Below, in pieces: positions 28,978 through 32,259 of a DNA stretch of 64,000 bases. This DNA is from Hypericibacter adhaerens (GTDB lineage: Bacteria; Pseudomonadota; Alphaproteobacteria; Dongiales; Dongiaceae). A model generated the notes under the pieces. It worked only from the letters and a program-made list of their open reading frames with translations, was not told the DNA's origin and ran no database searches. The position numbers were made by a program, and so were the translations under genes. The stretch is taken from the NCBI RefSeq assembly GCF_008728835.1, contig NZ_CP042582.1:5439001-5503000 (forward strand). Reading direction: 5' to 3'. Numbering within the stretch: the stretch's first letter is position 1; the number at the start of each line of letters is the position of its first letter.

Positions 28978-29037
28978 ACGATAGTTTCTCATAGGTTCTG
29001 TTAGCCCTACTCACATGTATTGGGACATTCCGGGGCC

Positions 29038-29940
29038 ATGGCCGAGCGGCTTCCCCCTTTGAAATCGATCCAGTATTTCTCGGTGGCCGCCCGCCTCCTC
29101 TCCTTCAGCCGGGCCGCCGACGAGCTGCATGTGACGCACAGCGCCGTCAGCCACCAGATCAAGGCGCTCGAGGAATGGCTGGGCGTGCGGCTGTTCCGGC
29201 GCGCCAACCGCCAGGTGATCCTGACCGACGCGGGCCAGGCCTATCTGAAGCCGGTGATGGAGGCTTTCGACCGGCTGGGCGAGGCTTCGCGCCAGCTCAA
29301 GCGGCGCGAGAGCGCAGGGCCGCTCACGGTGAGCACGCTGCCTTCCTTCGCGGCGAAATGGCTGGTGCCGCGCCTGCGCACCTTCCGCCAGGAATATCCC
29401 GACATCGATGTGCGCATCACGGCGAGCGAGAAGCTGGTCGATTTCGCGCGCGACGATATCGATCTCGCGGTGCGCTATGGGCGCGGCAACTGGCCGGGCC
29501 TCGTGGTCGACAAGCTGATGCGCCATGACTGGTTCCCGGTCTGCAGCCCGGCGCTCCTGACCGGCACCCCGCCGCTGCAGAAACCCGAGGACCTCGCCAA
29601 CCACACGCTGCTGATCGATTACGACTGGCGCGAGGATGCCTGGGGCGGCTGGCTCGCCGCGGCCGGCGTCGGCCATATCCGCCCCAACCGCACGCTCGCC
29701 TTCAACTATTCGAACCTGATGATCCAGGCCGCGATCGACGGGCTGGGCGTGGCGCTCTCGCCGGGTGCGCTCGTCAGCGACGATCTCGCGGCGGGCCGGC
29801 TGATCCGGCCTTTCAAGACCAGCCTGCCGACCGACTACGGTTATTTCCTGGTGGCGCCGCCCGGCGCCTTCGAGCGCCCGAAGCTCGCGGCCTTCCGCGA
29901 CTGGATCCGGCGCGAAGCCGCGGCTGCGATCGGGCCGTGA
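29038..29940 (+). CDS. LysR-family regulator, GcvA type
   Basis: A 300-residue LysR-type transcriptional regulator of the GcvA/AmpR branch. The N-terminal helix-turn-helix is in LLSFSRAADELHVTHSAVSH, preceded by PPLKSIQYFSVAAR. The effector domain includes TVSTLPSFAAKWLVPRLRTF, typical of GcvA-like proteins. The target is unknown; the divergent DUF1127 gene is the first candidate. The ATG at 29038 (MAERLPP) fits better than the one six codons earlier. Confidence 0.92.
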   Translation: MAERLPPLKSIQYFSVAARLLSFSRAADELHVTHSAVSHQIKALEEWLGVRLFRRANRQVILTDAGQAYLKPVMEAFDRLGEASRQLKRRESAGPLTVSTLPSFAAKWLVPRLRTFRQEYPDIDVRITASEKLVDFARDDIDLAVRYGRGNWPGLVVDKLMRHDWFPVCSPALLTGTPPLQKPEDLANHTLLIDYDWREDAWGGWLAAAGVGHIRPNRTLAFNYSNLMIQAAIDGLGVALSPGALVSDDLAAGRLIRPFKTSLPTDYGYFLVAPPGAFERPKLAAFRDWIRREAAAAIGP

Positions 29941-30045
29941 GGCGCGGAAAGAAACGCCAACGAATTCCGAAAACCACGCGCTTGCAGCCGGGCAGGATAC
30001 ATCCCAAATGCAACCGTCAAGTCGTGGCACCGCCAAGGGGGCCTG

Positions 30046-30891
30046 ATGTTGAAGGATGATGTGTTGCCTAGTCCCGAGATCGCCATTTCCGGCGATATCG
30101 AGCCGCATGCGCACCTGCTGTCCGTGCCTTCCGAGGATCAGTTGCTCTACAAGATGATGACGCTGGAGAATCTCATCCGATCGATTGAAGGCCGCTATCT
30201 TCACTTCAATCGCGTCGACAGCTACTTCGATTTTCAAGGGGCCGACCATCATGATGGCGAGCAATTGCCAGGTGATCGGCAAGGCAACGCGGCAGCCAGG
30301 TTTGAGAAATCGCCAGAGTTCTCGGCTGCGCACTACTACGACCAGTCGCGCGCGCGGACCTATGCGTCCTGCTTTTCGACGGAAAACTCCGCCTTTATTT
30401 GGAATAACTACGCGACCGACGGTAACAAGGGCAAGGTTTGCCTCGTTTTCGACTTTGGCAAACTTCGGGCGACGCTCAACAGTACCCTCTCGCCCAACCA
30501 AGCGGCGCTCATCGCTGATGGCGCACGTTGCCACCAGATTTTCTCGATCAACTATGGGCTGGTTGATTACGTCGATTGGAACAGTCATAGGGCCAATGTT
30601 CCCGTTCTGCCCAATCCGATTTGCTACACCTTTATCAAAGCAAAGGAGTTCTCGGACGAGAAGGAGCTGCGCATCGCTCTCTCTGCTTTTGGCTTGGGCA
30701 GATTCGAGCTGAACAACGGAAATGAGCTGCAGTTTCCGAGAAGCTTGCAAATGGCTTTCAGCTACCATGCGGCATTCGCCAATGGCACAATCAAGTCGAT
30801 TGAGACCGGTCAGGATTGTGACCGAGATTTCCTCGAGTCTGAATTGTGTCGACTGAGAATCAATCCAGTCCCAGCACCGACAACGTCCTAG
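30046..30891 (+). CDS. DUF2971 family protein (low-GC orphan)
   Basis: A 281-residue protein matching the DUF2971 pattern: LLYKMMTLENLIRSIEGRYL at the N-terminus and ASCFSTENSAFIWNNYATD with GKVCLVFDF in the middle. The family has no established function and occurs in many accessory regions. Its base composition is about 53% G+C by eye, clearly below its neighbours, and its codons end in A/T far more often, which suggests recent transfer. A strong ribosome site (AAGGGGG) lies before the ATG. There is no phage or toxin partner next to it. Confidence 0.8.
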   Translation: MLKDDVLPSPEIAISGDIEPHAHLLSVPSEDQLLYKMMTLENLIRSIEGRYLHFNRVDSYFDFQGADHHDGEQLPGDRQGNAAARFEKSPEFSAAHYYDQSRARTYASCFSTENSAFIWNNYATDGNKGKVCLVFDFGKLRATLNSTLSPNQAALIADGARCHQIFSINYGLVDYVDWNSHRANVPVLPNPICYTFIKAKEFSDEKELRIALSAFGLGRFELNNGNELQFPRSLQMAFSYHAAFANGTIKSIETGQDCDRDFLESELCRLRINPVPAPTTS

Positions 30892-30943
30892 TGGCTGGAT
30901 CGAAAGCATTCTGTCCCCGCTGCTAGTTCACGAGGCGCCGATC

Positions 30944-31282
30944 ATGACGGGCTTTCCCAGCGACGACGTCCCGGAGCTTGCGCGCGGGGTCCATGACATG
31001 GGCGGGCTGCCCGGCGGCCCGGTCGACCGGCACGAGCATGCGGTCAGCCTGTGGGAAAAACGTGTCGATGCGCTGCTCGTGCTCTTGACGCGCAAGGGCG
31101 TCTTCAGCGTCGACGAGCTGCGCAACGCGATCGAGCGGCTGGGTGCCGAGGCCTATACGGCCATGTCCTATTACGAGCGCTGGACCGCCTCGATCGCCTG
31201 GAACCTGATGCAGCGCGGCGTCATCACCGCCGACGAGCTGGGCAAGCGGATGGCCGAGATCGAGGCCGAGGGCCGGCAATGA
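30944..31282 (+). CDS. NHase/SCNase-like beta subunit, N-terminal half
   Basis: A 112-residue protein matching the N-terminal half of the nitrile hydratase beta subunit, or the beta subunit of thiocyanate hydrolase. Recognisable parts are GVHDMGGLPGGPVDR, WEKRVDALLVLLTRKGVFSV, and MSYYERWTASIAWNLMQRGV. In most nitrile hydratases this is fused to a C-terminal SH3-like domain, but here the next gene encodes that part separately. The stop overlaps the next ATG (ATGA). It may also resemble an activator protein (p14K/NhlE), which has the same fold. Confidence 0.8.
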   Translation: MTGFPSDDVPELARGVHDMGGLPGGPVDRHEHAVSLWEKRVDALLVLLTRKGVFSVDELRNAIERLGAEAYTAMSYYERWTASIAWNLMQRGVITADELGKRMAEIEAEGRQ

Positions 31283-31584
31283 CGCCAGCGGCGCGCCTCA
31301 GCGTGAAACGCTTCAAGCCCGGCCAGGCGGTGCGGGTGCGCCGCGCCTTTCCGCCCGGCCATATCCGCACGCCGATCTATATCCGCGGTGCGGCGGGCGT
31401 GATCGAGCGCGATTGCGGCGACTGCGTCAATGCCGAGGAGCGCGCCTTCGCCCGCTCCGGCCTTCCGGCCCTGCCGCTCTATCGCGTGCGCTTCCGCCAG
31501 CAGGAGATCTGGCCCGGTTATGACGGCCCCGACAGCGACAGCATCGAGATCGAGATCTACGCCAACTGGCTCGAGCCGGCGTGA
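31279..31584 (+). CDS. NHase/SCNase-like beta subunit, C-terminal half
   Basis: A 101-residue protein matching the C-terminal SH3-like domain of the nitrile hydratase beta subunit, or the alpha subunit of thiocyanate hydrolase. The motif PPGHIRTPIYIRGAAGVIER is diagnostic and contains the conserved arginine of the active-site wall. PLYRVRFRQQEIWPGYDGP and a YANWLEPA end also fit. It overlaps the N-terminal-half gene by four bases and is followed 15 bp later by the alpha subunit gene. Splitting of beta into two genes is the thiocyanate hydrolase layout. Confidence 0.85.
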   Translation: MTPAARLSVKRFKPGQAVRVRRAFPPGHIRTPIYIRGAAGVIERDCGDCVNAEERAFARSGLPALPLYRVRFRQQEIWPGYDGPDSDSIEIEIYANWLEPA

Positions 31585-31599
31585 GTGGGAGAGGATGCG

Positions 31600-32259
31600 A
31601 TGAGCCATACTCATGATCACGATCATGACCATCACCACCCCGCCGGATCAGCGCCGCAGCGCCACCCGTTCCAGCCCGACGATCCGCCGCCGACCGGCCA
31701 CTATCAGCTCATGGCAGTGGCGCTGCGCGAGCTGCTGATCGAGAAGGGCGTGCTCGGCGCCGACGAGATCCGCGCCCAGATCGAGCGCATGGATGCGCGC
31801 GGACCGCATCTGGGGGCAAAGGTGGTGGCGAAGGCCTGGAGCGATCCGGCCTACAAGGCGCGGCTGCTGGCGGACGGGCCCAAGGCCTGCGCTGAGCTCG
31901 GCATCGAGCTCGACGGCATGCGGCTCACCGTCGTCGAGGACAAGCCCGCGCTCCACAACCTCATCGTCTGCACGCTCTGCTCCTGCTATCCCCGGGCGCT
32001 GCTGGGCCTGCCGCCCGCCTGGTACAAGAGCGCCGACTACCGCAAGCGCGCCGTGCGCGAGCCGCGCGCGGTCCTGAAGGAATTCGGCACCGAGCTCGCC
32101 GCCACGACCGCGGTTCGCGTCCACGATTCGACCGCCGAGCTGCGCTACATCGTCCTCCCGCTGAGACCCGCCGGCACCGAAGGCTGGAGCGAGGAAAAGC
32201 TCGCGGGCCTGGTCACGCGCGACACCATGATCGGCGTGACGCTGCCGAAAGCGGGCTAG
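31600..32259 (+). CDS. Cobalt-type nitrile hydratase/SCNase alpha-like subunit
   Basis: A 219-residue catalytic subunit. The metal claw is VCTLCSCY, with C124, C127, S128 and C129; the threonine at 125 marks the cobalt type, against serine in the iron type. LLGLPPAWYKSADYRKRAVREP follows closely, as in the family. The N-terminus carries a His/Asp-rich stretch (HTHDHDHDHHH) that may bind metal. It starts after GGGAGAGG, five bases before the ATG. No activator or cobalt transporter gene is adjacent. The substrate (nitrile or thiocyanate) is not decided by sequence. Confidence 0.88.
   Translation: MSHTHDHDHDHHHPAGSAPQRHPFQPDDPPPTGHYQLMAVALRELLIEKGVLGADEIRAQIERMDARGPHLGAKVVAKAWSDPAYKARLLADGPKACAELGIELDGMRLTVVEDKPALHNLIVCTLCSCYPRALLGLPPAWYKSADYRKRAVREPRAVLKEFGTELAATTAVRVHDSTAELRYIVLPLRPAGTEGWSEEKLAGLVTRDTMIGVTLPKAG

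Follow-up and report, generated by a model that had tools for sequence, protein, structure and literature searches.

A stretch of 64,000 nucleotides from Hypericibacter adhaerens (NZ_CP042582.1, positions 5,439,001 to 5,503,000), hereafter the window, carries an operon of three genes, betaN, betaC and alpha, whose products probably form a three-subunit cobalt nitrile hydratase (NHase) that is matured with its own betaN. By the available tests it is neither a thiocyanate hydrolase (SCNase) nor an ordinary two-subunit NHase. The layout is already known from one studied Streptomyces enzyme, not named in the first-pass annotation: the NHase of Streptomyces canus CGMCC 13662 (ScNHase), for which the gene order anhD-anhE-anhA is described and in which AnhD corresponds to the N-terminal and AnhE to the C-terminal portion of beta (PMC7329996). 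The window operon is a further case of this known, little-noticed type, and the interest is in the group rather than in the window copy. Cobalt-type NHases are industrial catalysts described as normally needing an activator to reach their active form (PMC7193024); the three-gene genomes, mostly without an activator, would be a stock of possibly self-maturing enzymes, and cobalt loading without a p14K-type activator becomes a testable question. The group may also show the background against which SCNase evolved, and the exchange of Trp for Arg offers a single clean residue for a test.

The operon and its position in the superfamily

Window numbering is used throughout, and matches to Pfam and TIGR models were judged against the cut-offs of the models. 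The operon has the following features:

30944..31282, + strand: betaN, 112 aa, a separate N-terminal half of the NHase beta subunit, AnhD-like or scnB-like; PF21006 NHase_beta_N, 2.5e-23
31279..31584, + strand: betaC, 101 aa, a separate C-terminal half of the NHase beta subunit, AnhE-like or scnA-like; PF02211 NHase_beta_C, 4.9e-19
31600..32259, + strand: alpha, cobalt type, 219 aa; PF02979 NHase_alpha, 9.8e-81; TIGR01323, 255.3 bits
31600..31638, + strand: His/Asp-rich N-terminus of alpha (MSHTHDHDHDHHH), not specific to three-gene enzymes
31969..31995, + strand: CTLCSCYPR, the cobalt ligand motif and then Arg132, which corresponds to Arg136 of SCNase gamma and Trp116 of NHase alpha

The first-pass annotation had described a beta subunit split over two genes, and this is confirmed by the coordinates, with an ATGA overlap of betaN and betaC at 31279-31282, and by the PF21006 and PF02211 domains, which like the PF02979 match of alpha lie above the Pfam cut-off. 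The order betaN, betaC, alpha is also as it had been annotated, and the alpha is of cobalt type with the motif VCTLCSCY; the betaC stop ends at 31584 and the alpha ATG stands 15 bases further at 31600, the earliest possible start being an in-frame GTG at 31585. Against the single-chain beta model TIGR03888, betaN aligns to positions 2-101 and betaC to positions 136-226 of 226, and their 76.6 and 64.0 bits fall short of the cut-off of 152.2 for a full-length beta. Alpha scored 255.3 bits with the NHase alpha model TIGR01323, just above the cut-off of 249.85, and 220.8 bits with the SCNase gamma model TIGR03887, below the cut-off of 291.45. An AlphaFold model of alpha alone (mean predicted local distance difference test score 87.2) matched NHase alpha and SCNase gamma structures in PDB with Z of 25-27. 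Alpha (31600-32259) also passed the cut-off of the NHLP leader peptide model TIGR03793 (58.8 against 50.9 bits), and at several loci the N-terminal helices of alpha match the betaN profile weakly. A second genome of the genus (G014) carries the operon with protein identities of 92/80/88% for betaN, betaC and alpha. The ratios of nonsynonymous to synonymous substitution rates (dN/dS) between the two are 0.11, 0.29 and 0.14, respectively, which shows that all three genes are under purifying selection; betaN-betaC-alpha is an intact operon.

Two trees were built. The alpha tree, a quick one, comprises 129 rows thinned at 85% identity; the concatenated alpha, betaN and betaC tree was made carefully from 73 rows with the Arg/Trp column masked, the rows being thinned at 66% identity and some named rows kept. 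In the alpha tree a branch with support 99 separates the fused-beta NHases, three reference NHases and the alpha-betaN-betaC operons from 63 betaN-betaC-alpha rows and SCNase gamma. The same branch is found in the concatenated tree at 100/100 with a length of 0.53, every betaN-betaC-alpha operon standing on the window's side together with SCNase, and at 100/99 after eight rows were added. The affinity to the SCNase side that the gene order had first suggested is borne out by this split, and the window alpha does not cluster with the two-subunit NHases. SCNase and one locus, L185, make up a 100/100 pair of their own with the window outside; once the eight rows are added, SCNase and L185 come together with the Streptomyces and betaC-alpha-betaN operons at 98/91, the window being placed with a family relative (G001), away from the SCNase subgroup. 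By these trees, the window operon is a member of the three-gene side of the superfamily, which includes SCNase, and stands outside the SCNase sub-branch. A tree with SCNase outside the other three-gene operons is 1.39 log units better than one with SCNase inside them (p-AU, of the approximately unbiased (AU) test, 0.509), a difference that does not decide between the two. L185 (JASHRV010000250.1, a metagenome-assembled genome of Acetobacteraceae) has the betaN-betaC-alpha layout and is the closest relative of the Thiobacillus thioparus SCNase that was seen, with 59% identity in alpha and 57% over the joined subunits.

The distribution was followed in the window's own order (17 genomes, all of one family) and in 385 genomes sampled from its class. 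A betaN match of at least 60% identity is present in five of the 17, the own genome included, and a match at E <= 1e-14 in 72 of the 385. All 45 of the matched genomes that were layout-typed have betaN-betaC-alpha; 45/385 is a lower bound, for among the 27 other matched genomes one (G302) ends before alpha and the rest may include fused betas. A sample of the class of genome G507 yielded betaN matches at E <= 1e-12 in 5/369 genomes: one locus is betaN-betaC-alpha with CSCYPR (L249), three are alpha-betaN-betaC with CSCYPW (L250-L252), and the fifth is the fused beta of G507 itself. Among the loci collected, near-duplicates included and eight cut or odd loci excluded, the layouts are betaN-betaC-alpha (73), alpha-fused beta (71), fused beta-alpha (5), alpha-betaN-betaC (4) and betaC-alpha-betaN (1); the residue after CSCYP in the eight excluded loci is Arg in five, Trp in two and Tyr in one. 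BetaN and betaC could share a 4-base NTGA overlap in 56 of the 73 betaN-betaC-alpha loci, some of them near-duplicates. None of 398 genomes in a sample of the phylum exceeded the TIGR03887 cut-off, so the genomes gave no SCNase control. Such operons are easily missed because RefSeq names the beta halves 'SH3-like domain-containing protein' in several records. Two loci, L171 with a three-gene alpha and L243 with an odd alpha that groups with Reyranella, come from metagenome bins titled Bordetella parapertussis, titles that may be wrong.

Among named records, the betaN-betaC-alpha layout is also found on one Streptomyces and one Planktothrix plasmid. The former (Streptomyces sp. NBC_01176, L254:4980-8752) has, downstream of the three-gene NHase, genes for aquaporin, a hypothetical protein and a HoxN/NixA cobalt transporter; an accessory gene is absent from its annotation. 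The layout of this operon is that of ScNHase, Arg follows CSCYP, and the operon falls with the three-gene ones at the split. On plasmid p1 of Planktothrix agardhii (L255:3054-6239) the operon lies directly after asparagine synthase, preceded by GST-family, NADAR, TauD-like and methyltransferase genes, surroundings that may represent a biosynthetic cluster in which one step involves a nitrile. A second split layout, betaC-alpha-betaN, occurs on plasmids of Rhizobium leguminosarum (L256), Microvirga terrae (L257) and Azospirillum brasilense (L258), and with a locus of G014 (L033:8917-10325) these make one 100/100 group near SCNase. The R. leguminosarum operon adjoins CbtA/CbtB, with sulfite oxidase further along, and the M. 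terrae operon is near a NixA-type cobalt/nickel transporter; the betaC-alpha-betaN operons are candidates for thiocyanate hydrolase. Finally, alpha-betaN-betaC operons with CSCYPW (L160, L038, L193, L244 and L250-L252) fall on the NHase side where they are in the trees, and an accessory gene lies close to three of the first four; the division of beta in these operons seems to be an independent event.

Active-site residues and the likely reaction

Residues were counted in rows made non-redundant at 85%, 63 of betaN-betaC-alpha and 54 of the NHase side. Two residues after CSCY, the three-gene alphas have R in 54, V in 5, K in 3 and W in 1; the NHase side has W in 46, F in 4, L in 3 and H in 1, and never Arg. 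This position corresponds to SCNase gamma Arg136 and Pseudonocardia thermophila alpha Trp116, which according to their titles were swapped in PDB entries 3vyg (R136W) and 3vyh (aW116R). Beta is numbered here as in Pseudomonas putida, derived from chain positions. The residues Arg52, Glu56, Tyr68, Trp72, His147 and Arg149 have a role in beta; the window betaN keeps the first four and the window betaC keeps the other two in a GHxR motif, with Arg in place of His71 and Trp in place of Tyr215. The last two replacements are general among the three-gene rows, where position 71 is R in 56 and K in 4 of 63, and position 215 is Trp in 63/63. At alpha position 163 the window and 56/63 three-gene rows have His, the NHase side has Trp (54/54) and SCNase has Ala. 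This alpha His and the betaC Trp, together with a betaN His (58/63) and a betaN Asp (53/63), are diagnostic of the three-gene rows and match neither NHase nor SCNase. SCNase has the three-gene Arg after CSCYP, Arg at 71 and several other three-gene residues, and is without the betaC Trp, the alpha His and GHxR; an insertion common to SCNase and L185 is absent from the window alpha. The three-gene rows therefore have a residue pattern peculiar to them, and SCNase is either a diverged member of the group or its sister.

We propose that alpha would hold cobalt(III) in the CTLCSC claw, and that betaN and betaC, with the domains and conserved beta-side residues described above, would assemble to do jointly the work of the one-chain beta, in a heterotrimer, or a dimer of heterotrimers, in which each alpha carries one cobalt. 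The most likely reaction, by analogy with the S. canus enzyme of the same layout, would be hydration of a small nitrile to the amide. A broader reading, tentative and on balance doubtful, takes all three-gene operons as one old and widespread class with free betaN as a cobalt-loading chaperone that makes an activator unnecessary and an active site tuned to a charged nitrile (Arg for Trp by the metal claw, Arg for His71, Trp for Tyr215 and His for Trp163); SCNase would then be an offshoot of this class and not of the ordinary NHase.

Neighbouring genes name no common substrate. The 70 scanned co-directional neighbours of three-gene operons, out of 86 listed (16 were left out, long or short ones and one betaN), match 100 Pfam families with no common partner, the commonest family occurring in 3/70, several of them being housekeeping genes and amidase occurring in 1/70. 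Such scatter would suit a special nitrile, probably a negatively charged or natural-product one such as a cyano acid, with the Arg residues serving the charge and SCNase as one offshoot; so would the residues unlike both NHase and SCNase (of 63 rows, 56 with the His in alpha, 58 with the His and 53 with the Asp in betaN, and all 63 with the Trp in betaC) and the cyanobacterial member directly downstream of asparagine synthase in an apparent biosynthetic cluster. We regard a special nitrile as unlikely nonetheless, since the window neighbourhood indicates no substrate and ScNHase is described as active on acetamiprid and other nitriles, neutral ones (PMC7329996).

The first-pass annotation had also offered thiocyanate hydrolase as one possible identity of the operon. 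The reaction would then be SCN- + 2 H2O -> COS + ammonia, with alpha Arg132 and betaN Arg71 helping to bind the anion, and several features agree with it: the window's place on the SCNase side of the deep split, three separate subunits, a YYxRW motif in betaN as in SCNase, and Arg132 at the gamma-136 position, the SCNase state of the residue exchanged in the reciprocal mutants 3vyg and 3vyh. This identity was not borne out and is quite improbable: the TIGR03887 score misses its cut-off (220.8 against 291.45), the window stands outside the 100/100 branch of SCNase and L185 and is without their insertion, and the position of Trp163 is taken by His in the window and in 56/63 three-gene alphas instead of the Ala of SCNase. 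In addition, the five scanned neighbours include no cobalt transporter, cyanase or sulfide gene, unlike the Thiobacillus cluster as described in PMC5328954.

An ordinary two-subunit NHase with a beta gene recently split in this lineage is a very improbable reading of the operon. The narrow pass of the TIGR01323 cut-off speaks for it, as does the occurrence of beta splitting on the NHase side in the alpha-betaN-betaC operons; when the window row alone is placed among the NHases, 42.7 log-likelihood units are lost, with an AU p of 0.093 that is no formal rejection. The split of beta is, however, common to all betaN-betaC-alpha rows, which are separated from the NHases at 100/100, and the genome's own fused-beta NHase stands on the other side of the tree; a recent fission is accordingly disfavoured. 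A decaying or inactive paralogue, suggested by the second, complete NHase of the genome, is scarcely credible with dN/dS of 0.11-0.29 against G014 and with the metal motif and beta-side residues kept.

Cobalt loading and genomic setting

An accessory gene, taken as a weak betaN-like gene on the same strand and no more than 2.5 kb away, is near none of the 73 betaN-betaC-alpha loci, 32 of the 71 alpha-fused-beta loci, 2 of the 5 fused-beta-alpha loci and 3 of the 4 alpha-betaN-betaC loci, counts that are lower bounds where contig ends cut the loci. PF21006 was further searched in 52 whole three-gene genomes and in 17 controls chosen for an NHase-side operon. Activator-like matches, defined as starting at profile position 6 or later with 23-57 bits and judged by reading the match list, were found in 9/52 three-gene genomes against 16/17 controls. 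In the other 43 three-gene genomes no such match was found, these being drafts in which the profile would miss diverged activators and in which other cobalt chaperones were not searched for. Eight of the nine also have a second, NHase-like alpha (PF02979, 297-304 bits); the match of the ninth, G175, is a weak one of 25 bits far from its operon, and a 21.7-bit match in G016 that overlaps alpha was left out of the count. G044 has a fused-beta NHase and yet no activator match, and the sole control without a match is G002. In 36 of the 52 genomes betaN is the only PF21006 match.

The window genome is less simple in this respect. A search of its single 5.87-Mb contig with PF21006 returned only betaN and two proteins of a second NHase locus outside the window (C1:4516316-4517785, - strand), which consists of genes for alpha, for a fused beta of 214 aa and for an accessory-type protein (match at C1:4516316-4516501), and whose alpha falls on the other side of the alpha tree from the window operon. 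The activator that the first-pass annotation had reported missing is thus absent from the operon and present in the genome. The same annotation had suggested that the His/Asp-rich N-terminus of alpha loads cobalt in the activator's place; this candidate was rejected, as the stretch is equally common in three-gene alphas (48/73) and in alphas before a fused beta (50/70) and occurs also in SCNase.

BetaN and the p14K-type activators share a domain (PF21006), and neither small gene of the window turned out to be an activator, a kinship that the first-pass annotation had kept in view: betaC is a PF02211 protein, betaN has only 20.5 bits with the accessory-protein model TIGR03889 (cut-off 46), and in a betaN tree with 20 of the 36 accessory sequences (101 columns) the three-gene betaNs stand apart with support 97. 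The accessory proteins attach on the NHase side of this tree, in which 49 of 90 inner branches are open and no claim of ancestry is made; the weak signal would fit an origin of the activator from betaN on the NHase side. In ScNHase, cobalt is described as entering alpha without an activator under reducing conditions, with AnhD as a chaperone and AnhD2-AnhA behaving as the complex of alpha and activator does in other NHases (PMC7329996). By analogy with AnhD, we propose that free betaN binds the window alpha during cobalt loading and hands it to betaC, a separate activator most likely being unneeded; the activator beside the ordinary NHase could help in trans.

Several points weigh against a three-subunit NHase matured in this way. 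Arg after CSCYP is the state of SCNase and lends some probability to thiocyanate as a substrate. The Streptomyces plasmid operon that stands in for ScNHase falls in a group (98/91) that contains SCNase and the betaC-alpha-betaN operons, apart from the window. The window row alone could be moved to the NHase side without formal rejection, and the genome does encode a p14K-type activator, beside its ordinary NHase. To our knowledge, the only activities known on this side of the tree are those of SCNase and, by layout alone, ScNHase.

Five neighbours of the operon were scanned; they encode a LysR-type regulator, a DUF2971-like protein, an AMP-binding protein resembling acyl-CoA synthetases, EamA and DinB. 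None of them is an activator, a cobalt transporter or an amidase, and the absence of all three next to the operon stands as first annotated; a cyanase or sulfide gene is likewise missing from them. The regulator is as follows:

29020..29940, + strand: LysR-type regulator; PF03466, 7.1e-44, and PF00126, 1.4e-23; linked to the operon by synteny

The LysR gene immediately precedes betaN in G014 and G001; in the window an insertion of about 1 kb separates the two; from this synteny the LysR protein probably regulates the operon. The stretch between LysR and betaN that has no counterpart in G014 (about 29927-30927) contains the DUF2971-like gene (30046-30891, + strand), whose PF11185 match of 21.8 bits is slightly below the cut-off of 22.

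Comparison with known systems

A 2020 review lists six NHase gene layouts, giving the three-gene one to SCNase, with an activator, and calls activators indispensable except in eukaryotic NHases (PMC7193024). SCNase trees in a 2023 study are rich in Alphaproteobacteria, seemingly without the three-gene features described here (PMC10098168). A literature search, largely without subscription papers, found no description of activator loss or of the Arg/Trp split for the three-gene group as a whole.

The cobalt-type NHases of P. putida, P. thermophila and Bacillus resemble the window enzyme in the CTLCSC claw, in the fold of alpha (Z 25.8-26.9) and in beta Arg52/Glu56/Tyr68/Trp72 and His147/Arg149, and differ in their one-chain beta and the Trp after CSCYP, Tyr215 and His71 being replaced in the window. 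With the two-subunit type as a whole the window shares CTLCSC and the TIGR01323 match; it lacks a single-chain beta and an adjacent p14K-type activator and does not group with the fused-beta NHases. The toyocamycin NHase of Streptomyces rimosus, whose subunits include ToyK and ToyL, is a three-subunit NHase as in the window, a likeness by description only. For this enzyme, ToyJKL, alpha alone is reported to be active (as given in PMC7329996).

The T. thioparus SCNase (PDB 2dd4) shares with the window the number of three subunits, a catalytic subunit rich in His, the Arg that follows CSCYP, a YYxRW motif in its betaN-like subunit and the side of the tree. It differs in its insertion, in having YTR where the window keeps GHxR, in an SCNase model cut-off that the window alpha does not reach and in its type of neighbourhood, absent around the window operon. 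SCNase expression is reportedly promoted by an activator, P15K, according to the title of a cited study. The T. thioparus gene order is given as alpha-beta-gamma-activator in PMC7193024 and as scnB-scnA-scnC in the first-pass annotation; the related L185 has betaN-betaC-alpha.

ScNHase was compared by layout; its sequence proxy, the Streptomyces plasmid operon, is on the same side of the split in a different subgroup, nearer to SCNase than the window. An activator gene is reported as not recognised in the S. canus genome (PMC7329996), a difference from the window genome, which has one elsewhere. The window nevertheless has the same betaN-betaC-alpha order as described for ScNHase, in an operon equally free of an activator.

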